Virus record (IMG/VR): IMGVR_UViG_3300010883_000432
Location: 1 to 24,920 of that record
Origin: a virus
Reading direction: 5' to 3' (one strand)
Length of the DNA: 24,920 nt
Of the stretch, positions 2,973-18,509 are shown piece after piece (position 1 is the stretch's first letter; each line of letters opens with the position of its first letter). The translations under genes and the position numbers were made by a program. The notes under the pieces were generated by a model. The model was not told where the DNA came from. It saw nothing but the letters and a program-made list of their open reading frames with translations, and made no database searches.

Positions 2973-3139
2973 CTACCTATCAGGCACATCATCAAAAACA
3001 AAAGGGGGGGCTGGCTCTAAGTCACTACAGGACTCAAAGTACCCACAGCCTCTTTCGCACACCAATTTACACCTAACGCCCCTGAGAGTCCCACCACAGT
3101 TAATACACACAAACCGACCCAGGTCAGCGGGTGGTGTGG
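2722..3139. repeat. Cluster of GGTGTGG motifs, two paired with C6 tracts
   Basis: On the plus strand GGTGTGG occurs at 2722, 2802, 2924 and 3133. A fifth copy is on the minus strand at about 2863-2857. The copies at 2722 and 2802 are both followed by six variable bases and then CCCCCC. A six-base G run lies at 2943-2948 and a seven-base G run at 3004-3010. Seven-mers recur this densely far more often than expected in about 400 bp. Possible roles are a protein-binding array, a packaging or end-processing signal, or an early regulatory region. The motifs are seen directly; the role is unknown. Confidence 0.5.
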
Positions 3140-3152
3140 TAAAGTCGCTCAC
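2973..3152 (-). CDS. Probable zinc-ribbon microprotein, about 59 aa
   Basis: This frame ends at TAG 2973 and encodes a Cys-dense segment: CINCGG, then CKLVCERGC, then YFESCSDLEP and an acidic FVFDDVPDR tail. Cysteines at residues 16, 19, 28, 32, 36 and 42 (from GTG 3152) resemble small phage zinc ribbons. The spacing and the orderly C-terminus look like real protein. The weak point is initiation: GTG 3152 has no clear ribosome binding site, and the frame is open back to about 3217, overlapping the end of the upstream gene in the -1 frame. It may start at a non-canonical codon or be coupled to the upstream gene. Confidence 0.4.
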   Translation of the reverse strand: MSDFTTPPADLGRFVCINCGGTLRGVRCKLVCERGCGYFESCSDLEPAPPFVFDDVPDR

Positions 3153-3184: not shown

Positions 3185-3400
3185 CTACTCCCCAGTTCCC
3201 AATTGACGGTACATGATGCTTAGATCATCTAGGCCCACGCCCCCGTCCCCATTAAGATCCCCAAGAATCCCCCGATCAGGGCAGGTCGCCTCAGCGTTTT
3301 GAATGTCCTCGATTTCGTCGGCCCGGTTCACCAGAGGCGCAGATCCAGGGCCACAAGCGAGTGCCCCCGCCGTGACCAGTACCAGTATCAAGTATTTCAT
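3185..3400 (-). CDS. Small exported protein with a dockerin-like calcium loop, 71 aa
   Basis: I place the start at ATG 3400, preceded by GAGAGGACACA; the longer frame to 3430 has no binding site. Residues 1-15 form a signal peptide ending ALAC, an imperfect lipobox, so it is either a lipoprotein or a cleaved secreted peptide. Residues 42-69 read CPDRG, then GDLNGDGGVGLDDLSIMYRQLG. This matches one half of a type I dockerin (D-x-N-x-D-G-x-V-x-x-x-D-L), i.e. an EF-hand-like calcium loop and helix. True dockerins carry two such repeats; here there is only one, at the C-terminus. Such C-terminal CPxD...LG tails are common in Planctomycetes proteins. Partner and function are unknown. It is the last gene of the late block. 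Confidence 0.7.
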   Translation of the reverse strand: MKYLILVLVTAGALACGPGSAPLVNRADEIEDIQNAEATCPDRGILGDLNGDGGVGLDDLSIMYRQLGTGE

Positions 3401-3476: not shown

Positions 3477-3797
3477 TCAACTCCCGTTAGATCTAACTAT
3501 GATTTCAATGGACGTTAATTTGTCAATTATCTGCTGATTGGTCTGCCGTTGCATGGTATTCCCTGACTTCAGGTCTTCTTCCAGCTTGTAAACCACAGTC
3601 TCGAGACGAACAACGCTGTCATGTGTCTGATCGATTTTCTTAGCAGTTTCATCGACTTCTTCTTCTGTCGCCACAGAGCGTATCTCCAAGTTGGAAACCC
3701 TCTCTCGGGTTTTTATGAATGCTGCACCAATGCCAAGAAACAGGGTAGATAGGGCGGCTGTTAATGATTTCCACACATCAATCCCGCCATCGGGCAC
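3477..3797 (-). CDS. Membrane-anchored coiled-coil protein, 106 aa
   Basis: The frame is open to a TTG at 3836, but I choose GTG 3797. It overlaps the upstream TAG by one base (TAGTG) and has AAGGACGG about 8 bases before it. Residues 8-28 (LTAALSTLFLGIGAAF within this segment) form one membrane span, followed by a basic patch KTRER. The rest (about 30-105) is a charged heptad-like coiled coil. Topology is probably N-terminus in the membrane and coiled coil on one face. Inner-membrane spanin subunits and accessory holin-type proteins share this shape. Since a separate Rz/Rz1 pair exists at 9370-9772, its role here is uncertain. Confidence 0.65.
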   Translation of the reverse strand: MPDGGIDVWKSLTAALSTLFLGIGAAFIKTRERVSNLEIRSVATEEEVDETAKKIDQTHDSVVRLETVVYKLEEDLKSGNTMQRQTNQQIIDKLTSIEIIVRSNGS

Positions 3798-4096
3798 TAT
3801 CCACCGTCCTTGCAAATTAAACCGGGACTCTTCCAAGGCATCTGATCTGCTTCCTCTCTGTTATCGGGCACACCCAACAAGCTGAAACACGCCTCATGCC
3901 AAGTTTCCAGAATCACGCTCACCAACCTGTCCCACTCTTCCTCGGAGCCTGCGAGGGGCCTGAAGCGGCTGTTGAGTGCCACTGCGGGGCCACCCTGAAA
4001 CTTCTCCATGCAATACATATGTGCGTTAGTCGAATCATTTGCGCTTGCACCCGTTGCAGACAACAGCAAGAAGAAAATCAGGGCTGCGGTAGGCAC
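3797..4096 (-). CDS. Small secreted protein, 99 aa, unknown function
   Basis: The start is GTG 4096, with CGGAG eight bases upstream; it overlaps the end of the sulfatase gene by 19 bases. An ATG at 4103 is out of frame and soon closed. Residues 1-19 are a classical signal peptide (LIFFLLLSATGASA) with cleavage likely before NDSTN. The mature part of about 80 residues has three to four cysteines (MYCMEKF, HEACF, GLICKD) that could form disulfides in the periplasm, and an acidic EEEWDRLVSVILETWH helix. I do not recognise the family. Its overlap with the sulfatase gene suggests co-translation and perhaps a shared compartment. Confidence 0.65.
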   Translation of the reverse strand: MPTAALIFFLLLSATGASANDSTNAHMYCMEKFQGGPAVALNSRFRPLAGSEEEWDRLVSVILETWHEACFSLLGVPDNREEADQMPWKSPGLICKDGG

Positions 4097-5949
4097 GCCA
4101 CATTCTCCGGGTACATATTCGGGTATGCAGCTTCTATGACAAGATTGATCTCTGCCCTTGCGTCGATAACTTCCTGAACTGCCGAGTTGCGTAAGTTAAC
4201 GTGCCATGTTGCGGGGTCGCTGATATTTTGAACGTAGTCACAATGGCTACTATCTTCATCGGGCCACCTCCACACACGGTAGGCATCTCCAGAAGCGTCA
4301 GGATCTAGAACTACCGAAAAGGTGAGGGGATCGTTCGAAATTGGCTGCGATGTACCGGGGACGAACGAGGTGACGCGCGCCCAGTCGGTTCCTATCGTCG
4401 CACCAAGAAGTCTGTTCTGAGACACGGCAGTGCCATCAAGTAGGCTCGAAAAATCTCTACCCCTATCGAAATATGTGGTAGGTCTTTCTCTGATTAGTTG
4501 GAGAGTAGTCTCGGCAACGTCAGCAAAATTGAAACGGGCTGCGGACGATGTACCCCGAAGATTCTGTGGAATAGACCCATACGAAACAACGAACGGCACA
4601 TTCAACCCAGTCTCGGAAGGCCCACCCTTTCCAGCGTAACGGTTTGTAATCCAACTGTGTGCTGGAGAACACGTATTTGCATTGACGTCCCACTGGCAGG
4701 ATGTTGGTTGGTCTGCACTATTGGCACTTACGGGGACAACAATATTTTGACGATACGGCAGTGACTTATCCTCTGATCCGTTATCTCCTGTAAAAATTAT
4801 GAAAGTGTTTTCAAGACCCTCTGGCCCAAGCCAATCCAGCAACTTTCCTATCTGCTCATCTATTAGAGTTAGATGTGTTAGTTCACAGTCGTACCTTAAT
4901 TTAACCCAATCAAAGTCTGTTCCAGGCCCGCCGCTCGCCGCAGGCAATAGTGCTGCGAATTCAGACGCAGTGTAGTTGGGAGTATCCGGCCCATAAGGTT
5001 CAGCGGCTCGACCTACAGGGGCAAGGACCGGGATGACGGTGTGCCCGTTGGCGGGAGTTATATCGAGAATCGCATCAGCGGGGCCAGTCGCATAGCCGTT
5101 CGTGGGGGTGCGGTTGTGGACACAGTTAATCCCGCCAAAACCGTGACTAAGCCCGGTGCTTATCGTGAGGAAGAAGGGTTGTCCCGTCCTGTGTCCAAAC
5201 CAGTTGACTGAGTTGAGTGGGGCGTTACCGTAGAAAGTCTCGACCCAATCCTCCAGTTCAAGGAAACCAACTTCATCAACGTGCATATACTCGTTGCCAT
5301 CGACCGTCCACAGTTCGCTGTCTGATCTTGGCATCGTCCAAGTAGCGGAAGAGGAAACCCATCCAAACCCCCCGTGGCCCAAGCTGTCTTGCATTATAAG
5401 GCCCGTCGACCCCCAGGTTGCTAGATCATTATCGGTCCCATCCATCGCACCCATCATGTTCTTACCATGATGGCCAATCTTATAGGCTGACCCTGTCAAG
5501 GACTGCACATAGTCTTTGGTTGTAGGGTTACCGTCGCCGTGCCAGGGGGGCCTGGTTGGGTCTTCCCCAACACCGTCCCACCCCCAGCGCAACATATCAC
5601 GAGTCATTTTGCACCAATCCCCAGACCAGACCCCCGTGAAGTTTATGCCATTGTCGAGCAAGCGATTTAGGCTCGGAAAATCTCCCGCGAGTTGGGGTTT
5701 ATAGAAATTATCCGAATGAACGACAGAACCAGTAAACGATGCAACCAATGGATCAATCTGCCAAAACGCACCCAGTTGTGGGTACGCTTCTCTCCCAACG
5801 TCATCCAGCATCACGAATATAATATTTGGGTTCTGTGGCCTTACTCTCCACGAAGGCTCCTCAACAAAAGAGGCAGACCCACCAGGGAAACTTCCAGCAA
5901 CAGAAATGCTGGGCACAAGTAGGAGTATGGCCAGTAGGGTTTGCTTCAT
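4078..5949 (-). CDS. Exported sulfatase-superfamily protein, 623 aa
   Basis: The start is ATG 5949, overlapping the upstream stop as ATGA; the frame extends to 5985 but the signal peptide begins at this ATG. Residues 1-19 are a cleavable signal peptide. PNIIFVMLDDVG (41-52) is the sulfatase N-terminal strand with the metal-binding Asp pair 49/50. Cys113-Lys-Met-Thr-Arg117 occupies the nucleophile site. HGKNMMG (161-167) matches the usual GKWHLG region, LSHGF (267-271) a substrate histidine, FTGDNGS (386-392) the second metal site, and AGKGGPSETGLNVP (439-452) the family's GGKG..EGG..VP segment. Sulfatases hydrolyse sulfate esters; the sulfate donor here cannot be told. Two consensus residues differ (Met for Pro in CxPxR, Met for His in GKWH), so activity is uncertain. 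It is probably periplasmic, released at lysis or virion-borne. Confidence 0.88.
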   Translation of the reverse strand: MKQTLLAILLLVPSISVAGSFPGGSASFVEEPSWRVRPQNPNIIFVMLDDVGREAYPQLGAFWQIDPLVASFTGSVVHSDNFYKPQLAGDFPSLNRLLDNGINFTGVWSGDWCKMTRDMLRWGWDGVGEDPTRPPWHGDGNPTTKDYVQSLTGSAYKIGHHGKNMMGAMDGTDNDLATWGSTGLIMQDSLGHGGFGWVSSSATWTMPRSDSELWTVDGNEYMHVDEVGFLELEDWVETFYGNAPLNSVNWFGHRTGQPFFLTISTGLSHGFGGINCVHNRTPTNGYATGPADAILDITPANGHTVIPVLAPVGRAAEPYGPDTPNYTASEFAALLPAASGGPGTDFDWVKLRYDCELTHLTLIDEQIGKLLDWLGPEGLENTFIIFTGDNGSEDKSLPYRQNIVVPVSANSADQPTSCQWDVNANTCSPAHSWITNRYAGKGGPSETGLNVPFVVSYGSIPQNLRGTSSAARFNFADVAETTLQLIRERPTTYFDRGRDFSSLLDGTAVSQNRLLGATIGTDWARVTSFVPGTSQPISNDPLTFSVVLDPDASGDAYRVWRWPDEDSSHCDYVQNISDPATWHVNLRNSAVQEVIDARAEINLVIEAAYPNMYPENVACLPQP

Positions 5950-6932
5950 TGAGCCACAGCCTCCAGTGTCATAACAACGTCCCAATCAGTCACCGCATCG
6001 CAATTTAGCCCCGGCGATCCGGAGGTGCCGTTCCGATTTATACCGTAAGAAGTTGATACTCCCGCTAACACTACCTCGCTGGTGGTTGTTGTTACAACTG
6101 TGTTCTCCAAGCTGCCCGTAAGAGCGGTAGAGTCCAAAGTCAACCGTAGAGCAGTGACTTCAGAAGTATTGTCTTTCCATACGATGAGCGAGCAGTCATT
6201 CGCACCTTGACCACCAGTGTCAACGGTTGCGGATAGCGTAATATCCCATGTCACAGGCCCCGTCGCCGGGGCTGAAACCGTAATTGGCGAGGTGCAATCA
6301 TCCGCGCCATTAGCACCCAATTCTGAACAGGATGCGGCAACCCCAGTCCCGGCATCTAGAGTGGTGACTAGAGGGCCGAGGGTGTAAACGGCAGCAAACG
6401 GTATATAACAGGTGCCCACTCCGGCCCCGCTCTGGCGGCATTCCTGCCCTCTAGCCCCCGTTCCTGAACTCCCTGAATTATTAATTTCATCGTAGACGGA
6501 ACCCAATACGTTTAGTGTGCTGCTAGTAATTTTCGCTCTGTTAATTTCTAAGCCTGCGGCTGTGATAAGATCCGTAAATATTGGGCATTCTACGGGAAGT
6601 GAACCCGTTGAGTCAAACACGCACGAGACATTACCCGCTAAGTCTGTCGTACCTACCCCAAGAGAAATTGTCTCTGAACCCTGGTTAGACCCCTCAGAGA
6701 AAATTAGTGCCGAACCAGTCGCAGCGGCTGGGCTAGATACAACCCCGGCTCCCGCTGTGTTGAGAACCAGATTCCCACTACCGTCTTGACATATGTCCCC
6801 AGTGGGGCAAGTGCCAAGGCCACCACCACCACCACTGCCACTGTAAACGGGGTTAGTGGTAGACCCAGACCAGCTAATACTAGGTGCTGCAAGTAGCACT
6901 AGAGTGAGTAGAGTTAAAAGTGATTTAAACAT
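5946..6932 (-). CDS. Secreted Cys-containing beta-rich protein, 328 aa
   Basis: ATG 6932 immediately follows the upstream TAA, and the stop overlaps the sulfatase start by ATGA. Residues 1-22 are a signal peptide. Next come a flexible Gly run (SGSGGGGGLG), a short CPTGDIC loop and Ser/Thr/Gly/Ala-rich sequence typical of beta-sandwich or repeat surface proteins. Several paired cysteines (CPTGDIC, CVF...CPIF, CRQ...CYI, CSELGANGADDC) suggest disulfides and export to an oxidising compartment. The C-terminal half (about 180-328) reads as alternating strands. Its motif CSELGANG echoes CTNLRANGGRC of the next upstream gene, so the two may be related or partners. No catalytic motif was recognised. 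It could be a virion surface or adhesion protein. Confidence 0.75.
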   Translation of the reverse strand: MFKSLLTLLTLVLLAAPSISWSGSTTNPVYSGSGGGGGLGTCPTGDICQDGSGNLVLNTAGAGVVSSPAAATGSALIFSEGSNQGSETISLGVGTTDLAGNVSCVFDSTGSLPVECPIFTDLITAAGLEINRAKITSSTLNVLGSVYDEINNSGSSGTGARGQECRQSGAGVGTCYIPFAAVYTLGPLVTTLDAGTGVAASCSELGANGADDCTSPITVSAPATGPVTWDITLSATVDTGGQGANDCSLIVWKDNTSEVTALRLTLDSTALTGSLENTVVTTTTSEVVLAGVSTSYGINRNGTSGSPGLNCDAVTDWDVVMTLEAVAQ

Positions 6933-7370
6933 TTAATCCAGATCCTCTACCAATGAAACTACAATGTTTCCAGAACCAGTGGCACTCACCTCAAACCAAT
7001 ACGTTCCTGCGTACAAGAACAGGCAATCTGTCCCATTGAGGGTAGCCGCAGTAGGTGCAAGAGATACTGTAGGTGTGATAACTTCATGTACTTGTATCGT
7101 TGCTGTTGAGCCAGCGTCCGCACAAACTTTTGTCCGACCGCGAACCGAGAAGGTAGCGGAGGATGTGGCTGTAGTAGTAGCGTCACCCCACCAAAAGCAC
7201 CTACCACCGTTGGCCCTTAGATTTGTGCATTTCGGGGCGTAATCCACACCCACATCTGCCACATTTGAAATTAAAGGCTTCAGAGGATCAGCCGCACCCA
7301 AAGCACTTCCGGGGACCAAGGACAACAGAGCAAACGCTGTTGCAAATAGTCCAATGATACTATTACGCAT
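6933..7370 (-). CDS. Secreted protein, 145 aa, unknown function
   Basis: The frame is open into the terminase gene (to 7481). The start is set at ATG 7370 because AGGAAGGTAACA lies directly before it and a signal peptide begins there (residues 1-25, ending ALG before AADPL). The mature protein of about 120 residues is Thr/Ser/Val rich with predicted beta strands and cysteine pairs CTNLRANGGRC, KVC and DC. The tail (LYAGTYWFEVSATGSGNIVVSL) looks like an edge of a beta-sandwich. It starts 10 bases after the large terminase stop and is followed directly by the next secreted protein gene. No family was recognised. Confidence 0.75.
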   Translation of the reverse strand: MRNSIIGLFATAFALLSLVPGSALGAADPLKPLISNVADVGVDYAPKCTNLRANGGRCFWWGDATTTATSSATFSVRGRTKVCADAGSTATIQVHEVITPTVSLAPTAATLNGTDCLFLYAGTYWFEVSATGSGNIVVSLVEDLD

Positions 7371-7380
7371 TGTTACCTTC

Positions 7381-9099
7381 CTAAATCCCCATAGGGGTGA
7401 GCCAAGTTTTTTGGTTCCGTCGGCCCTTAAGATTAAAAACATTATCTCTAAACTTCTCAAGGTCTTTCTCGAGGAGATCACTTCTATGTTCTAACATCTG
7501 CTCATCTACACTCACCGCAATTTGATCTACCCAATACTGACAAGCCATAGCGAGCGGATCAATTCTATCATCGTGTTTTAAAGCTCCCCTGTCCCTGGTT
7601 ATCCGGGTGAGTTGGTGGACAAGTTTACGATGGATATAGTTATTGTCAGTTTCATCTTGGTATGTTACGTCATGCTTTAGCATCTCCCTATCAAATATCA
7701 GCCTATGCTGATTCAGTAGTGGCTCTAAGACATTAATTATCCTAGCTTCCTTCTGATGTACGGATCGTGGAGCATCTTCGATTGAGCAACGGTGTATATC
7801 CCTAATGATTGGTTTAAATAGCTCCACAAACATACCATCACCAAAGTTAGGCTCAACGATAATCATCTGAACCTTCTCTTCTTTGGCTATGTGCGCCAGC
7901 TTTGTTAGGGTTTTGCTGTCGTATCCCCCTCTAAACCCCCCGCATTTCCTAACAAACAACTGACCGTGCAGCATTTTTACTACAACATAGCCAGTTTCGT
8001 CCTTACCACGCCCCGAAGGGTCCACAGCCATCACAGATCCGCTGTACGGAAGCCATTTTTCCCCGTCAACCTCCATTCGGGTGTGGAATCTGTCCCCTGG
8101 TAGGCCAATCATGGGTATATCGTTGACGATCTGCTGTTGGCCAGAGCCCCATACCATCTTTTCGGGGGCAATGTCACAATCTGTGTCGAATACAATCATA
8201 TCTCGGCACTTAAGTGGGTACCTGTCCATGTCAGACAGGGCAGTATCCAACATAAATTGTAGAGAGAACCCAGTTCTACCATATTCACCCTCTCTCTCCT
8301 GCAATTCAATCTCATCAAACCTAATATCTGTAGGTTTCCCCCACTCACTCTCACCCTTAAGTGACCGTTCATGGATTACAGGCGTTAAACCGTCACCATA
8401 CTTATGAAGCTGGGCCTCTGAGGGCACTCTGGCGGGCCAATTTCTAACCGTATACCCCCTAGAAGGGAGCTTATTGTAAAGACTGTCTTCATTCTGCGGT
8501 GTTCCCAGGAATATAACCTCATGTCTTGCTCCACCAGAATCATCATCTGGTTTTAGGATAGCCGCAAACTCCTTAACACGTTCAGCCAGCTTCTCTCTCT
8601 GTGTGGCAGTTTCACTATTGTTAGGTACTTCAACATCATCAGCAACGATAACGTCTGCTCGAGTGCCCGTAATCATACCGTAAAGACCTACCGACTTAAC
8701 ACTTGGGCTTTGGGACACGGGGGCTGTACCAACAGTAAACTTTTCAATACTGTCAAACCCGTGCCCGTGTCGGGGCTCAAGGTGTTTAACAAGTGGCATT
8801 TCGTGGATGACCATCTTTGTGAACCTACTGAACGCATCCGATCTATCCTTACTCGCTGACACCACTAGGATATTCTCTTCGGGATCTCTGAATAGTCTCC
8901 AGATGACATATGCTGATGTGATATAGCTTTTACCTATACCACGGAAAGCCTGTATAACCTTACGCTTACCAACATTACCTTGTAGAAATTCTGCAATATC
9001 GTATTGCAAAGGTGTGGGTTCTGGAAGCCCAAGGAACTTCCAAACTAGCCAAAGGAAAACCTTGAAGTCTTCCAGAGCTCTTTCTTCAGTGGTTTTCAT
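7381..9099 (-). CDS. terL: Large terminase subunit (T7 gp19-like), 572 aa
   Basis: This is the ATP-driven DNA packaging motor and headful/terminal-repeat nuclease. The N-terminal ATPase has Walker A-like FRGIGKS at 52-58, LVVSASKDRSDAFSRF (a conserved T7 gp19 segment) at 78-93 and Walker B VIVADD at 150-155. The C-terminal RNase H-like nuclease shows MAVDPSGRGKDETGY near residue 360, IIVEPNFGDG near 413 and HDDRIDPLAMA near 510, supplying the acidic metal ligands. Length and motif order match T7 gp19 (586 aa). The ATG overlaps the small terminase stop by ATGA and lacks a strong binding site, so it is probably translated by coupling. T7-type terminases create direct terminal repeats, which fits the junction proposed at 2063-3184. 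Confidence 0.97.
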   Translation of the reverse strand: MKTTEERALEDFKVFLWLVWKFLGLPEPTPLQYDIAEFLQGNVGKRKVIQAFRGIGKSYITSAYVIWRLFRDPEENILVVSASKDRSDAFSRFTKMVIHEMPLVKHLEPRHGHGFDSIEKFTVGTAPVSQSPSVKSVGLYGMITGTRADVIVADDVEVPNNSETATQREKLAERVKEFAAILKPDDDSGGARHEVIFLGTPQNEDSLYNKLPSRGYTVRNWPARVPSEAQLHKYGDGLTPVIHERSLKGESEWGKPTDIRFDEIELQEREGEYGRTGFSLQFMLDTALSDMDRYPLKCRDMIVFDTDCDIAPEKMVWGSGQQQIVNDIPMIGLPGDRFHTRMEVDGEKWLPYSGSVMAVDPSGRGKDETGYVVVKMLHGQLFVRKCGGFRGGYDSKTLTKLAHIAKEEKVQMIIVEPNFGDGMFVELFKPIIRDIHRCSIEDAPRSVHQKEARIINVLEPLLNQHRLIFDREMLKHDVTYQDETDNNYIHRKLVHQLTRITRDRGALKHDDRIDPLAMACQYWVDQIAVSVDEQMLEHRSDLLEKDLEKFRDNVFNLKGRRNQKTWLTPMGI

Positions 9100-9380
9100 T
9101 GATTAAATTCAGGAAGATCAGGATCATAATGTTCATCATCTTCAAGAGACTTAGTTAGATTGGAGACAGACTTGGATGGCCGAGTAGGATCAACCTCTAT
9201 ATTGTTGTCTTTAAGAAACTGCCTAGCTGCATTAAGGAGAGATGCGCCAGGACTTACCTTCTTCACCATAAACCCAGTCTTAGTCTCCACTCTAACAGAA
9301 GTACCATTAACCACTTGGTCAATGAATTCCTCCGCGAGGATATTATGCAGATCCCCCAGTCTTTTAACTTCACTCGCCAT
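9096..9380 (-). CDS. terS: Small terminase subunit (T7 gp18-like), 94 aa
   Basis: The protein is of the size of T7 gp18 (89 aa). It starts at ATG 9380 with GAGAGGA eight bases upstream, and its stop overlaps the large terminase start. The N-terminal half is helical. VSPGASLLNAARQFLKDNNIEVDP (about 43-66) matches the conserved region of small terminases of T7-like phages. The C-terminus is acidic (DDEHYDPDLPEF), as in gp18. The role is DNA recognition and regulation of the packaging motor. It overlaps the Rz1-like gene by 11 bases. Confidence 0.88.
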   Translation of the reverse strand: MASEVKRLGDLHNILAEEFIDQVVNGTSVRVETKTGFMVKKVSPGASLLNAARQFLKDNNIEVDPTRPSKSVSNLTKSLEDDEHYDPDLPEFNQ

Positions 9381-9681
9381 TTGAGTAGTCCTCTCTTAAT
9401 ATATCTATCGCTTCACAGTGGACAACAAGCCGCGCAATAAAGTCATACGTTGAAGGGTATTTAGCCGAAACATAGTACAACTCACCTGAAACATATTCAT
9501 CAGGGACGGGACAAGGTGGCACTTGAGGCTGGTTAAGCTCAATTGTTCTCCCCCCCAGGCTCGCGCATCCTGTCAACAATAACAGCGAGCTTATCAAACC
9601 TAGGAGTAGGCTTGGCAATAACCTCTTGAATTCTGTTTTCCTTCTTGAAGAATTTTTTCTGCTTCTTAAGAAACGCCTCAT
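9370..9681 (-). CDS. Rz1: Outer-membrane spanin lipoprotein (Rz1-like), 103 aa
   Basis: ATG 9681 lies inside the Rz-like gene in another frame, the classical embedded/overlapping spanin arrangement. A basic N-terminus is followed by a hydrophobic segment and a clear lipobox LLTGCAS at about residues 35-41, so the mature lipoprotein starts at that Cys. The mature part includes a Pro-rich stretch QPQVPPCPVPDEY, typical of outer-membrane spanins, then about 40 extra residues with no assignment. With the inner-membrane partner it would fuse the two membranes at lysis, implying a Gram-negative-type host envelope. Confidence 0.82.
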   Translation of the reverse strand: MRRFLRSRKNSSRRKTEFKRLLPSLLLGLISSLLLLTGCASLGGRTIELNQPQVPPCPVPDEYVSGELYYVSAKYPSTYDFIARLVVHCEAIDILREDYSNGE

Positions 9682-9772
9682 TCGATCCTACCTCCCTAGA
9701 TAGTTTATTTATTTGCCTAAGCATCATAAGGTTTAGAAAAATGATACCTATGACAAGAAGGGTTGTTGTCAA
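9539..9772 (-). CDS. Rz: Inner-membrane spanin (Rz-like), 77 aa
   Basis: The start is TTG 9772; its first three bases overlap the TGA stop of the holin-like gene (TTGA), and no strong ribosome binding site is present, so translational coupling is likely. Residues 3-19 (TLLVIGIIFLNLMML) are a single membrane anchor. The rest is a charged helical periplasmic part with Lys-rich and Glu-rich runs. It is shorter than T7 gp18.5 (143 aa). Identification rests mainly on the anchor-plus-helix shape and on the embedded lipoprotein gene in another frame. Confidence 0.72.
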   Translation of the reverse strand: MTTTLLVIGIIFLNLMMLRQINKLSREVGSNEAFLKKQKKFFKKENRIQEVIAKPTPRFDKLAVIVDRMREPGGENN

Positions 9773-9955: not shown

Positions 9956-10888
9956 TTAAGCAGACTCTATCGTAGCTAGCCTGTTCTCCAGTTCTTCGAT
10001 TGTTTGGGATAATTCCTGAACAGCTTTAATTAATGGTGCTATTAGTTTCATGCTACTGATAGTCTCAACCTCATCCACGCCCCGTCCCCACCCAACATCT
10101 GCCCCGAGACTGTGCGAGTCTACAGCGGTTTTAAGTTCCTGGGCAATCAGTCCGTATTTGTACTCACTCCCATTCCTCTCCCTGCCGTCTAAGGTTACAA
10201 TTGAATTTTTTATACTAGCATCTTCAGACTCTGATAGATCCTCAGATTGTTTAAATTGAAACTTAACTGGTCTGAGGTCTTTAATAAAAGAAAGCCCCAG
10301 ATCCGAAGGTTCAATATTTTTCTTTAACCGTTCGTCTGAGGGGCTGTTAAAGTTGGATGCCGTCATCGTGGGACACGCCAAGTTACCCTGCACAGCCCCT
10401 GGATTTATGGTTGATGGTACGTATGTTAGGTCGTAGTCTGAAAAACATTCCCTGGAGAGACCGTAGTTATCAACAAGGAGACCACCCTGCATCATGGGCC
10501 AGAACGTGTGGATAGCACTTGTGTTGTCTGTTATGTCTAACGTCTGAGCTTCCCAATGGTCCGTATGCTCTTCAAGTGCGTATAGCGGCTGCTTAACTGT
10601 AATGTCCAAGCCTGAACCACTTATAGCTGTTTGATTAGTCCAGTCAACTAGCGGGATAGACTGTGTATCCCTCTTTATAAAGACAGACGCGCCCACGCTA
10701 GGGGGAGTTATAAAGGAAATCTCATTGGTGGATGTAACTACTGAGTAGTCCCCAGATTGCGTAGGAGTGTGCAGAGTCTTTAGTACCCCACCAACATAGA
10801 CTTTAATGTGAGTGGGATCTAAGTAGGGGAATGATATGGACAAGTTTCCCGCGCCCCCATATACATAGGTAACGCTAGTATTCGGCAT
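9956..10888 (-). CDS. Tail fibre with T7-type N-terminus and S74 chaperone, 310 aa
   Basis: ATG 10888 follows the upstream stop directly, with AGAGGA eight bases before it. Residues 3-110 (VTYVYGGAGNLSISFPYL ... DTQSIPLVDWTNQTAISG ... YALEEHTDH) match the T7 gp17 N-terminal domain that binds the tail. Residues 182-310 form an intramolecular chaperone, peptidase S74: SDERLKKNI with the autocleavage Ser184, YGLIAQEL, and a C-terminal coiled coil. Such chaperones trimerise the fibre and cut themselves off. Only about 70 residues lie between the two domains, so the mature fibre would have almost no receptor-binding shaft or tip. It may be an adaptor for another receptor-binding protein. Confidence 0.92.
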   Translation of the reverse strand: MPNTSVTYVYGGAGNLSISFPYLDPTHIKVYVGGVLKTLHTPTQSGDYSVVTSTNEISFITPPSVGASVFIKRDTQSIPLVDWTNQTAISGSGLDITVKQPLYALEEHTDHWEAQTLDITDNTSAIHTFWPMMQGGLLVDNYGLSRECFSDYDLTYVPSTINPGAVQGNLACPTMTASNFNSPSDERLKKNIEPSDLGLSFIKDLRPVKFQFKQSEDLSESEDASIKNSIVTLDGRERNGSEYKYGLIAQELKTAVDSHSLGADVGWGRGVDEVETISSMKLIAPLIKAVQELSQTIEELENRLATIESA

Positions 10889-13800: not shown

Positions 13801-15850
13801 AGGCCCGCCTAGCAATCGGCACTCTCCCGGGCGTGCTGCCTAGGCGCATCATTTGACCAAAGACAAGCTCAAGTTCTTCGCCGTTTGTAATGCGCTCCAA
13901 GTTCAAATCGGGGGGAATGCCGTGCAGCGTATAGAAGTCGGCAAGGGCTGCCGCATCAATCTCATCAGCTTGCAGAATTTCTAGGAGTGCTCTAGTTTCA
14001 GCCCTTGTAATCTTAAGGTGATTTCCTCCACCAAATAGAAAATCAGAAGCATTCTCAACCGCTCTACTTATGGGGATTCCTTCTCTCGTAGATGCCCTAG
14101 CTTCTTCTAGCCCACCCCCGGGCTTTAGTTTATTACCTGTCTTTGTGGTGGAGTCTTTGTCAAGACTGTCACGGAGAAGAGCTCTGGACTCCTTAGTCTT
14201 GGGATGAATGTGCGTGTTAGGGTCGCGTAGGGGATTAACACCATCAACAAGTTCTCTCTTGAGGTGTCCTGGGAGCGTCCTTACATTATCTGAGGTGGCT
14301 GCTCGTACCCAATCATCTTCAGCTTCTTCAAGTCTAGTTACGGTGCTATTAATAAAACCTTCGACTTCACCGTTTTTGTCCAGAACAGACCTAATACCTT
14401 TTGCCATATTCGCAAAGGCACCATCCCCGATCTGCTCTAGTTCGTCGAGTAGTGAAGAAGCACCGGAACGGACTTCCGGTCCTACAAGCGCATCGAATGA
14501 CACCAGTACGTTATTTCTGTAGTTCCCTGCCTGGAAGATAGCACTCTCAGCGTACACTCGAGCCTGTGGGGACAAGGACGCTAAAACCTCTTCGGGGATA
14601 AGAAACTCATCAACATCTGAATTCTTAGTAATTCTAGGTGAAAGCGTGCCCCCTTGCTGGCGGGCTCTATCCATCAGAGATTTCAAAGCTTGGCGAGCTT
14701 CAACAATATGTGGGTTACCTGTGTTGAAGTTCTTAACTGTCTCTACAAGCTCTGTAATAGTACTGAACACTTCCCTATAATGGGTGACACGTTTGGATAC
14801 TTCGTTTAGGGATTCTGCCTCAAGACTATCAAGACCGCCCTCCCGAATAAGTTTCCCTTCGATTGATCGGTGGAACTTTACTTTATCTACTATGTTCTTT
14901 ATGGCAGGGGTTGAGTGTTTTACTGCACCTACACCAAACCTGCCCGCCCCCTCAACACCAAACCCAACCGCAAATCCCTCAAGGGATCTCTTGAACATAG
15001 CTTCACCCCTGGTATCGCCGGGGTCTGTGGCCATGTACTCCAAGATCGCCGCCTCCATCGGGCCTCTGTCTTCGTCCGTGTTGTCAATAATGATGTCTGT
15101 GAGCCGTTCTTCCCACGGGTCAAACGGTAAGGCATCCGCAGGAATGCCCGAGAGAGAGCCTCTCAGGGACGTACGCAACCATTTTTCGCCCGATCTGAGG
15201 ATAGCTACTGAGTCCTGAAATTTCTTTGCTTTCTCAAAATTCTTGAACCACTTAACTGCGCCCAGCATCCTGAAGGCGGGAGCGAAACCAACAAGAAACT
15301 GGGATATTCCTTTAGCTCCAGCCTCCCAGCCATCCTGGGGTTCAGGCCACACCTTCTTACCATCAACTTCAAGGTTTTTAAGTGCCTCTATATCTACCGA
15401 AGCCCCACTAAAGTCGTAGTCCTGTGGATCTGTAACTTCTCCGTGTTGCATTACTTGTCCAGTGTCCGAATATTGGTTCGCTGCCCACTCAGCAATTGGG
15501 ACAACGGAATTATTCCATGTGTTTAGAATACCCTCTATACCCCCAGCTACAGTATTTGCTAGTACCCCACCATAACCTTCCGGCCCCCCAGCCCCGTCAT
15601 CCCCAAGCTGTTCAGACTCAAGCCCACCAGAGGGAGAGGCTGGCGAGCGAGGAACATCATCGGATTCTACGGAACTGGGAGGCGAGCCCATAACACTGGC
15701 GTTTAGAATGTCCACACCCTCCGAAGCCATATCGCTGATAAGAGCCTGGCGTTCAGCCGCCCGCGCTTTTTCTGCCCCGATGACTCCCGTCAGGGAGCCT
15801 TCATCTCCCGGCTCTAGAGGCGAATCCGTAATGTGGTTAATGGTTGTCAT
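10889..15850 (-). CDS. Giant internal virion protein in gp16 position, 1653 aa
   Basis: The start is ATG 15850 with a strong GAGGAGG six bases upstream, overlapping the previous stop (ATGA). It lies directly before the tail fibre, where T7 has gp16 (1318 aa), and is larger. The first 110 residues are low-complexity Ser/Pro/Gly. Much of the rest is helical. A conserved-looking block spans about 1170-1310, including [36 protein letters not shown] and [18 protein letters not shown], a pattern known from very large internal proteins of podoviruses. I see no transglycosylase signature (the lysin module is in the preceding gene). The expected role is ejection with DNA to form the trans-envelope channel. 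Confidence 0.85.
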
Positions 15851-16851
15851 TCCGGTCCTCCTCGCTTTCCTATGAAAAGGGGCTCATTTTCTCTTCGGGA
15901 GAGAACTTCCCGCTCGTGCCGCGACCCAGGAAGATACTCAAGTATGCCGGGATCAGGGTGCATAACTGCCTGCTGTGCATCAAGCTCCTGGTTAGAGTAC
16001 ATAACAAAACCAGACTCTTCCCCCGAGTCAAATTCATTGGTAGGCTCGAGTTCCCTGCTAATTGGTTCCATGAGTTTGGTTAGTTTGTCTGTAAGGGCTT
16101 CATACAGGAAGGATGGATCGACCCCCCTGGCCAAGTCTCCCGCTCCCGCCAGGAAGTTGTTCCACACAACTGCGGTGGTTTCCTGCATGTCCTGCAAAGC
16201 CCCTCTTTTTGAAATATCCCTTGAGGGATTCCCGGCTACAATACTCTCGGCTTCTTTAATTGCTTCAGGTGAGAAGGCGTTGTCCAGTGCATCAAGGACT
16301 CTATGCGTATTCTGTGTGTCCGTAGCATCGGAAAATTCTTCCACTTCCGTAGCCTCCTGTTGTTGAGGGGGGGCACCAATTGAATCCAAAAATCTGTTAG
16401 TGCGAAGTTCCAGTTCTTCTGGGCTTACTCTCTGATTTTTACCACCAGACTGGAGGTGTATATGGGGGGCAGACCCGTGTTTTTTGCCCCCCGGCATGTG
16501 CCATCTACCATCTGCTTTAATACCCAAACCCTGCGCGATTCGCATAAGAGAAAGGTAAACCTTCTCCTTCTCATCATCATTCATTCTGCCAACACTAGGA
16601 CCTCTGATTGCAAAATCGTGTGCAGGCTTGTTCTTGTGACTGCCACGGTCATTCGACGTTCTATCGCCAGGTGCGTACCCACTTGTGTGCACTAACTCGT
16701 AACCTTCCGGCAGAACCTTATCGGCATGTTCTATAAAAAGCATCAGTTGGTCCCAATATTGGTTGTGCTTATCATTTGTGTAGAAGTCCGCTGGAAGAGT
16801 GTGCTTGATAGGGAGCCTGCCCCCCAGCGTTCTGTCGATAGGATCAGACAT
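15847..16851 (-). CDS. Virion protein with N-terminal M15-like peptidase domain, 334 aa
   Basis: I set the start at ATG 16851 (TGATG overlap with the upstream stop); a GTG one codon earlier (16854) is possible. The N-terminal 140 residues look like a zinc D,D-peptidase of the M15/VanX type. Counted from the [20 protein letters not shown] is followed by SHKNKPAHD, where His73-x6-Asp80 matches the HxxxxxxD zinc motif, and by PHIHL with His131/His133 as the third ligand. It would cut peptide stems of peptidoglycan during DNA ejection. The C-terminal half is acidic and low-complexity, ending [13 protein letters not shown]. It sits between gp15-like and gp16-position genes, so it is probably an ejected structural protein. 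Confidence 0.75.
15862..15888. repeat. 27-bp repeat, copy 1 (end of peptidase gene)
   Basis: It matches 19911-19937 at 25 of 27 bases. On the minus strand both copies encode NEPLFIGKR and the two differences are synonymous. This copy lies immediately before the ribosome binding site of the giant virion protein gene and contains TTTTCATAGG. Confidence 0.85.
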
Positions 16852-18509
16852 CACTGCCCCACGTTAGGGGGAGCTTGGGCACCACTGTCGTTGTGGAGGA
16901 ACCCATCGATCAAAAGCTTCCTGTCTCGTACCGAATCAGCCTCAAGAAACTTTTTATACGCTGTCTCATTTAGGGTGAAAACTTTATCAAGACCCTTGCT
17001 AAACTCCCTTGCTGCGCCAATGTCTACCCCAGCAGCAGTACGTGGACTAGATACATGGGTCATGGACTCTCTAACAACTCTATAAAACAAAAGCCTTTTA
17101 GCGCGCTCTGTGTATTCATCTCGCACAGTTGAAGATACGAAGACAACGCCACCATCTTGAGTTGTGATGAGTTGCCCGCCTATAGCGTCTGCAAATTGTG
17201 CTAGGTGGTGTTTGAAGACGGGATTTCGTGATACCTGCCCTATAAGAGCAGCCCGCTCCCCTTCATAATCAAACATCTTTATCTGGTCACTATATGATAG
17301 GTCTTTAGCGAGGTCTGCATTAAAACCTCCATGACTTAACATGCTAAAACGAAGTTCAGCGTGCTGTGCTGGCGTTAGCTTACTTTCTGTAGAATCTCTG
17401 TATTGCTTTATCTTGCCTCCGGGGTTTTCAACCTTAAGCATCATCCCTAGAGTTATGTGTTCGTTGACCTCTGCTTGGTCACCCGTGGATACAATGTCAG
17501 GTACATCCGTATACCACAGCCGCTTCCGCTCTTTTCTACCCGCTTCAGCGTTCCGCGCCTCCACCCCAAGCCTCGTCAAGTCACGGGATTCCGCTGAACG
17601 GTAAGAAGCCATAAAGCGCGCAGCGTCCTCTGTATCTTCTGCTAGCCATGAAATATCGCGCCCCATTCCTATGTCTACCGCAATACCTGACAACCTAAAA
17701 AGAGTAGATTGATCCACTTCTTCCGAGTCAAGTATATTTATCACAGAACCTATAACTGCTTTTTTGATTTTGTATTTAGGAATCCCCCAGTTTTCAGCCT
17801 GCGCGGACAGGGAGTCGGGTTGGTCTGAGTTCAGGAGGTCATTAATCTCATCTTCGCCTCCATTATTTAAGAGTACGTCACGTACCACTAACCCGGCTTC
17901 TACATCAAAGGCTGCATCTCTCGCACCCTGGATGTATTGGGCAGAACGCGCCCCCAGACGGCCCCGCATCTTGCCATATTCTTCAAAGGCGGCGTCGGCC
18001 ATAGCTTCGCGGTTACGTTCCAGAAGTCGGGATTCCCCATCTTCTCCCTCTCCCGAAATATTAAAGGTCTTTGTATAGTCAGTCAGTGCCGCATCTGCCG
18101 CACTCATAATATCTTCGATGGTGCTATGCTCGTGCACCATTCCTGGGAGGGCTGTGGTTTCCCACTCCTGCATAAAGGATCTCCCCATGTTCGCGCCTTT
18201 ACGCTGATTGATTCCGATTGAAACCCAATCGTTCAGCCCCCAGGCCACATCCTCCTTCTCTAAAATTTCCTTTGTGGTAAGAGCAGCGTTTCTTTCAGCC
18301 AGAATAGTGCCACGCTTTACCGATGATTTATAGGCAGCCCCTATCGCACGCCCTGTCAAAGGGATAAGGACGTTGGCCAATCTCTCAAGCCCGGTAGCGG
18401 TAGAGTCCTGAATGGCAGGGGGATAATACGGACTAGGCGTGGTCTGTACGGTAGGCTGTATAGACGCAGGCGTAATGCCCTTCAGTTCAGTGTTTAATTT
18501 AGGACTCAT
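16851..18509 (-). CDS. Internal virion protein (T7 gp15-like position), 552 aa
   Basis: ATG 18509 overlaps the upstream stop (ATGA). The N-terminus is Pro/Thr-rich (about 1-35) and is followed by a long, mostly helical protein with no signal peptide, membrane span or enzyme motif. Order (after a gp14-like and before the gp16-position genes) and size compare with T7 gp15 (747 aa), a core and ejection protein. Residues 37-120 ([23 protein letters not shown] ... [13 protein letters not shown]) resemble the opening of such core proteins. Sequence-level homology to T7 itself cannot be shown by eye, so the assignment rests mainly on gene order. Confidence 0.75.

Follow-up and report, generated by a model that had tools for sequence, protein, structure and literature searches.

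Among described proteins, the closest points of comparison for the gene product reported here are the S1 sulfatases, a family that is defined by its Asp, Asp, Asp and Asn calcium ligands (PMC8746622). Sulfatase domains are also known from mobile elements, in Lpt-O and other phosphoethanolamine transferases that alter the O-antigen (PMC3458804), and HTVC010P/Skadi-like pelagiphages have a localised hypervariable spot that encodes an uncharacterised protein along with a structural protein containing a lectin domain (PMC10504331). A formylglycine-generating enzyme (FGE), not a sulfatase, has been reported in Pseudoalteromonas phages (PMC10232697), and the open-access papers on phage and viral sulfatases that we read contain no description of a phage sulfatase cassette. 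An earlier note on the DNA analysed here had singled out one sulfatase-like gene; this single-gene view misses a mobile four-gene cassette of which the middle two genes are exchangeable.

The window, by which we mean the whole stretch of DNA analysed, is a linear fragment of 24,920 bases from IMG/VR from which the early region is absent. Its late block is that of a T7-like phage, with a T7-type large terminase subunit (TerL), MCP, tail tubular proteins and internal virion proteins in the T7 order, along with a fibre and TerS. The genes of the cassette and its borders, all on the minus strand, are as follows.

7381 to 9099, minus strand: large terminase subunit TerL of the T7 type, with a T7-type RNase H domain (PF22530, E 1.3e-36; phrog_38, E 2.4e-108)
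6933 to 7370, minus strand: p145 (= p144), a small, putatively exported protein with conserved Cys, gene 1 of the cassette, identified from homologues in the sister phage L002 and on other cassette contigs
5946 to 6932, minus strand: p328, putatively exported, in the same slot in every cassette long enough to tell
4078 to 5949, minus strand: sulfatase-like, putatively exported protein (P0001) of 623 aa, identified by PF00884, AF2 model, fold match and active-site alignment
3797 to 4096, minus strand: p94, putatively exported, with a GTG start within the 3' end of the sulfatase-like gene, identified by alignment and pattern scan
3477 to 3800, minus strand: p119, with an N-terminal hydrophobic segment and a coiled coil, placed by synteny with phage G049 and by a weak match to phrog_739

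The sulfatase-like reading frame runs from an ATG start at 5949 to a stop at 4078. The earlier note had placed it immediately after TerL; it does lie downstream of a T7-type TerL, which in phages of the T7-like type marks the upstream limit of the cassette, but as the third gene, with p145 and p328 intervening. The proposed ATGA coupling to another gene for an exported protein was found at 5946-5949, where the start of the sulfatase-like gene overlaps the stop of p328. Elsewhere in the late block, the tail fibre (9956-10888, minus strand; 310 aa) consists of a T7 anchor domain and an S74 chaperone that leave little room for receptor-binding sequence, and a 335-aa protein encoded among the internal virion proteins (15847-16854, minus strand) has one stretch resembling a peptidoglycan peptidase and gave no Pfam or PHROG match.

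Pfam Sulfatase (PF00884) matched residues 41-485 of the protein with an E-value of 2.9e-12, covering profile positions 1-298 of 301 and scoring 47 bits against a curated cut-off of 25. An AF2 model produced from 22 aligned sequences (pTM 0.78) could be matched to S1 sulfatases along the greater part of the chain and has the sulfatase/alkaline phosphatase fold, with a Foldseek E-value of 1.7e-16 against S1 sulfatases and, as the best VIA-align match, a Z of 26.6 to the S1_25 module 6hr5 (347 residues, rmsd 3.5 A). The N-terminus, MKQTLLAILLLVPSISVAGS, reads as a type I signal peptide, and Cys 276, 355, 570 and 619 are kept in most members. Superfamily membership and a signal peptide, both claimed in the earlier note, are therefore borne out, the former by the profile and structure comparisons that it had proposed as checks. 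We conclude from the profile match and the model that the protein is a member of the sulfatase superfamily with an S1 fold; we withhold the label of formylglycine sulfatase, because its nucleophile motif is non-canonical and no FGE was detected on the contigs.

It can be seen from the active-site alignment that the catalytic residues D49, D50, C113, R117, K163, H269, D389, N390 and K441 are present in the window protein, among them the four calcium ligands of the S1 family (D49, D50, D389 and N390). The nucleophile lies in the motif C113-K-M-T-R117, which departs from the (C/S)xPxR formylglycine signature. All ten alleles in which this region is covered retain the nucleophile Cys, in the motifs CKMTR (window), CKVSR, CKASR, CAATR, CGATR, CVATR, CTTSR, CTPSR, CQPTR and CGPTQ. 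Canonical CxPxR is therefore present in G050 (CTPSR) and G043/G044 (CQPTR), and four of the ten have CxAxR, a form that anaerobic maturases accept; the Met-containing motif of the window is neither. The window protein may accordingly not be a standard formylglycine sulfatase, since it has CKMTR instead of CxPxR. FGE (PF03781) was detected on none of the 13 cassette contigs, several of which are fragments, and FGE or anSME could be supplied by the host. An unmodified Cys need not mean inactivity, as a choline sulfatase whose Cys is unmodified still performs multiple turnovers, if slowly (PMC6189696).

The main rival to a catalytic role is a non-catalytic, glycan-binding complex, in which a pseudo-enzyme or lectin would keep the fold as a scaffold and the exported complex would serve superinfection exclusion or receptor masking. 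It would account for the loss or alteration of the signature in eight of the ten alleles, for the G001 allele, where CGPTQ occurs together with EE replacing DD and Q replacing the active-site Lys, and for the appearance among the fold matches of the periplasmic domain of PbgA/YejM, a non-enzymatic member of the sulfatase fold. However, the nucleophile Cys, His269 and Asp389-Asn390 are invariant across alleles that are only 24-53% identical to that of the window, Arg117, Lys163 and Lys441 are kept in every allele except G001 (nine of the ten), the signature is fully canonical in two, and the catalytic core is conserved while the loops vary. Absence of the GKxH His, which is Met in the window and missing from all alleles, was dropped as a trait special to the cassette, as the nearest cellular sulfatases also lack it, reading GKWQ. 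The points that speak against catalysis are the CKMTR motif, the presence of CxPxR in only two of the ten alleles, the missing GKxH His and the lack of FGE on the contigs; taking both sides together, we regard the pseudo-enzyme as rather improbable.

All relatives of the cassette were drawn from one viral collection, IMG/VR. The window protein alone, used as a query against the viral contigs, gave no relatives; these were reached through TerL, and then with family alignments and a pattern search. TerL led to a sister phage, L002 (contig 3300001680_000205; TerL 93% identical), which in the same slot encodes p145, then a putatively exported protein of 579 aa, a sulfatase-like protein of 694 aa, and p94. 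When the viral collection was scanned with a general p94 pattern, 12 contigs emerged, the ones already found, all 12 with a sulfatase-like gene directly upstream. Including the window, the cassette is present on 13 IMG/VR contigs that carry 11 distinct sulfatase-like alleles (G040/G041 and G043/G044 are identical at the gene), and its order of p145, p328, sulfatase-like gene and p94 was seen on every contig long enough, with p145 missing only in G050, where a profile search did not find it. The search of other phage contigs that the earlier note had called for thus gave the same order on sister and on unrelated phages.

Four phage backbones carry the cassette. The first is T7-like (window, G001, G045 and G050), with the cassette after TerL. 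The second (G040, G041 and G042) has a different terminase, portal and head protein, its terminase being 44% identical to that of Skadi pelagiphages (G041 TerL), and in G040 and G041 the cassette follows the head protein. The third is represented by G049, with a phrog_332 connector and a phrog_2 terminase, and the fourth by G043/G044, with a phrog_3287 structural protein. Directly upstream of the G049 cassette lies a gene for a 1126-aa phrog_9880 protein of unknown function (L101, 13854-17231, minus strand). That the setting is marine is suggested by the closest known phages, those of Pelagibacter and Roseobacter, and does not come from sample records.

Among 38 other TerL relatives, none had a PF00884 match, and cassette genes were found in 0 of the 14 that extend at least 3 kb downstream of TerL. 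The sulfatase-like proteins of the window, L002 and G049, and p94, had no relative among 50,697 phage records, in line with the earlier note, which was aware of no sulfatase described in such a position; the divergent G045 allele as query gave six phage records only, most of them resembling bacterial DNA. No phage protein was among the significant BFVD matches to the model.

Fusion of host sulfatase genes to a phage contig during assembly, which the earlier note had named, beside the lack of a significant sulfatase profile match, as a finding that would overturn its reading, could be suspected from the slightly raised G+C of the sulfatase region (about 0.53, against 0.46 in TerL). The same gene order on 13 contigs with four backbones, sister and unrelated phages alike, argues strongly against such a chimera. 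p94 was also not found in 385 alphaproteobacterial genomes (an absence that is weak without a positive control) or in five sulfatase-bearing genomes, and we consider the chance of an artefact negligible. A genome scan for a host origin of the gene gave ordinary sulfatases only (best tblastn E-value 3e-6).

Comparison of close relatives revealed that the two middle genes diverge far more strongly than their surroundings. Between G041 and G042 the conserved flanks are nearly identical (p145 97%, p94 95%, following genes 93-97%), whereas p328 is 43% and the sulfatase-like protein 42% identical. Likewise, the window and its sister G001 share 93% identity in TerL but 32% over 38% of the length in the sulfatase-like protein, and the closer counterpart of the window protein is found not in G001 but in the unrelated phage G049 (46% identity over 98% of the length). 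The window and G047 are 84-86% identical in p94 and 34% in the sulfatase-like protein, and p94 identity had no predictive value for sulfatase-like identity (Spearman -0.12; the pairs are not independent). On sequence grounds p328 and the sulfatase-like gene behave as an exchangeable specificity pair, because they diverge so strongly (about 42% identity) between nearly identical neighbours (95-97%).

At a finer scale, the differences within the closest pair of non-identical alleles, G049 and G048, are concentrated in two loops adjacent to the active site, the longer one following the Asp-Asn metal ligands and preceding the later active-site Lys. In the 59 loop codons, with borders set after inspecting the data, pN was 0.387 and pS 0.374; in the remaining codons pN was 0.032 and pS 0.091 (pN/pS 0.35). 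As pS is high as well as pN in the loops, the changes point to imported segments rather than to point mutation alone. A diversity-generating retroelement was rejected, since the changes are not adenine-directed and there is no reverse transcriptase (RVT_1 was found on none of nine contigs).

These patterns also bear on the idea that the gene is a metabolic one, whose secreted product, a sulfatase or phosphatase, would supply the infected cell with sulfate or phosphate. The fold would suit such a role and auxiliary metabolic genes are common in phages, but a nutrient gene would hardly be expected to sit in the late block, to be strictly linked to genes for three putatively exported proteins of unknown function and to change its specificity rapidly between sister phages, and we hold this reading to be very unlikely.

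The remaining cassette proteins also have signal-peptide-like N-termini and conserved Cys. p328 has a Gly-rich N-terminus and a variable C-terminal part predicted to form beta strands; it gave no family match in Pfam or PHROG profile searches, and its AF2 model (pLDDT 44) was too poor for a fold search. p145 is 68% identical to its counterpart in L002 and has homologues in G041, G042, G044, G045 and G049, and in alignments p94 is the best-conserved gene of the cassette. p119, which belongs to the cassette in some phages, is 79% identical to the equally placed gene of the unrelated phage G049 and 34% to that of G001. Its weak match to the Rz-like spanin family phrog_739 (E 1.2e-4) makes a lysis function possible; that it is the main spanin is doubtful, as a nested Rz/Rz1-like pair sits upstream of TerS. 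This pair consists of two overlapping small genes (9370-9772, minus strand), of which one has the lipobox LLLTGCAS, with a phrog_456 match at E 0.067.

Two further small genes lie near p119. The first (3185-3400, minus strand) encodes a 71-aa lipoprotein-like product with the lipobox ..ALAC and a dockerin-like GDLNGDGGVGLDDLS repeat, for which the Dockerin_1 match (E 0.076) was below cut-off. The second encodes a small Cys-rich, zinc-ribbon-like protein and is found downstream of the cassette in both sisters (window 2973-3152, minus strand; L002 16319-16466, plus strand).

It is also conceivable that p328 and the sulfatase-like protein are carried on the particle, as an accessory adhesin or depolymerase that, for example, binds released virions at lysis. 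In the backbones that we examined the neighbours of the cassette are genes for virion proteins and packaging, p328 resembles phage fibre proteins as judged from its motifs, and with so short a tail fibre in the window receptor binding could lie elsewhere. However, all four proteins have signal-peptide-like N-termini and paired Cys, while tailed-phage virions assemble in the cytoplasm, and neither p328 nor the sulfatase-like protein gave a match to the T7 anchor domain. We consider a virion component unlikely.

The explanation that we favour, with about an even chance of being correct, is that the protein is a secreted hydrolase of the S1 sulfatase/alkaline phosphatase fold, the catalytic member of a mobile late cassette, and that it edits a charged surface glycan. 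Late in infection all four cassette proteins would be exported across the inner membrane and would there form their disulfides, and p328, as a fibre- or adhesin-like protein, would position the enzyme. This would cleave an ester, most likely of sulfate, possibly of phosphate or a related group, off a charged surface glycan of the infected cell or of one nearby. With the group gone, the capsule would be loosened or the receptor used by the phage itself destroyed, and progeny would thereby avoid re-adsorbing to infected cells or debris. A glycan target that itself changes would then account for the exchange of the pair and for the loop-restricted changes; an anti-receptor decoy or a binding protein would be equally compatible with exchange taken by itself.

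A broader proposal, which we offer only tentatively and think clearly less probable than not, is that unrelated phages have in common an undescribed mobile export cassette of four genes. Two of its products, an enzyme of the sulfatase fold whose nucleophile site has been remodelled and a variable, adhesin-like partner, would be swapped together as a specificity pair and would rewrite glycans on the surfaces of infected cells or their neighbours. If true, the cassette would be a bacterial-virus analogue of a receptor-destroying enzyme. The shared gene order in unrelated phages, together with two variable genes that diverge between close relatives, suggests a swappable tool aimed at cell-surface sugars. 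In the phages studied here sulfatase-fold proteins were found only as part of the cassette, and the presence on four backbones of an exchangeable enzyme-partner pair would imply that selection related to surface glycans acts on genes other than the tail fibre. The 11 alleles, with their different nucleophile motifs, form an expressible enzyme family for questions of receptor destruction, capsule editing and superinfection control, as well as of how much change the formylglycine signature tolerates.

With respect to known systems, the HTVC010P/Skadi-like pelagiphages are linked to the cassette through the TerL of G041, and no relative of the sulfatase-like protein or of p94 was found in their isolate genomes. 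A phage family of unknown function, phrog_19870, matched weakly (window E 5.1e-5, G049 1e-6, G045 1.8e-9), and for most alleles the match did not extend over the whole protein. Sulfatase-like proteins of the giant viruses Tetraselmis virus 1, Yasminevirus, Satyrvirus and Terrestrivirus matched the model in BFVD at E-values under 1e-3, as did two further proteins of the alkaline phosphatase/phosphodiesterase type; the giant viruses, however, have eukaryotic hosts and no shared cassette is known. With the S1 sulfatases, namely the S1_25 module of FA22250 from Formosa agariphila (6hr5), an S1_16 enzyme (7oza) and PAS of Pseudomonas aeruginosa (1hdh), the window protein shares PF00884, the fold, predicted export, the metal ligands and the active-site Cys, Arg, Lys and His, but it differs from them in having CKMTR for CxPxR, in lacking the GKxH His, in its large loop insertions and in its phage cassette context, and it is about 20% identical or less to any solved sulfatase. 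Lpt-O is a transferase encoded on a plasmid, whereas the window protein appears to be soluble and exported, with no membrane segment seen past the signal peptide; Lpt-O nevertheless provides a precedent for a sulfatase-superfamily domain that travels on a mobile element and changes a surface glycan.
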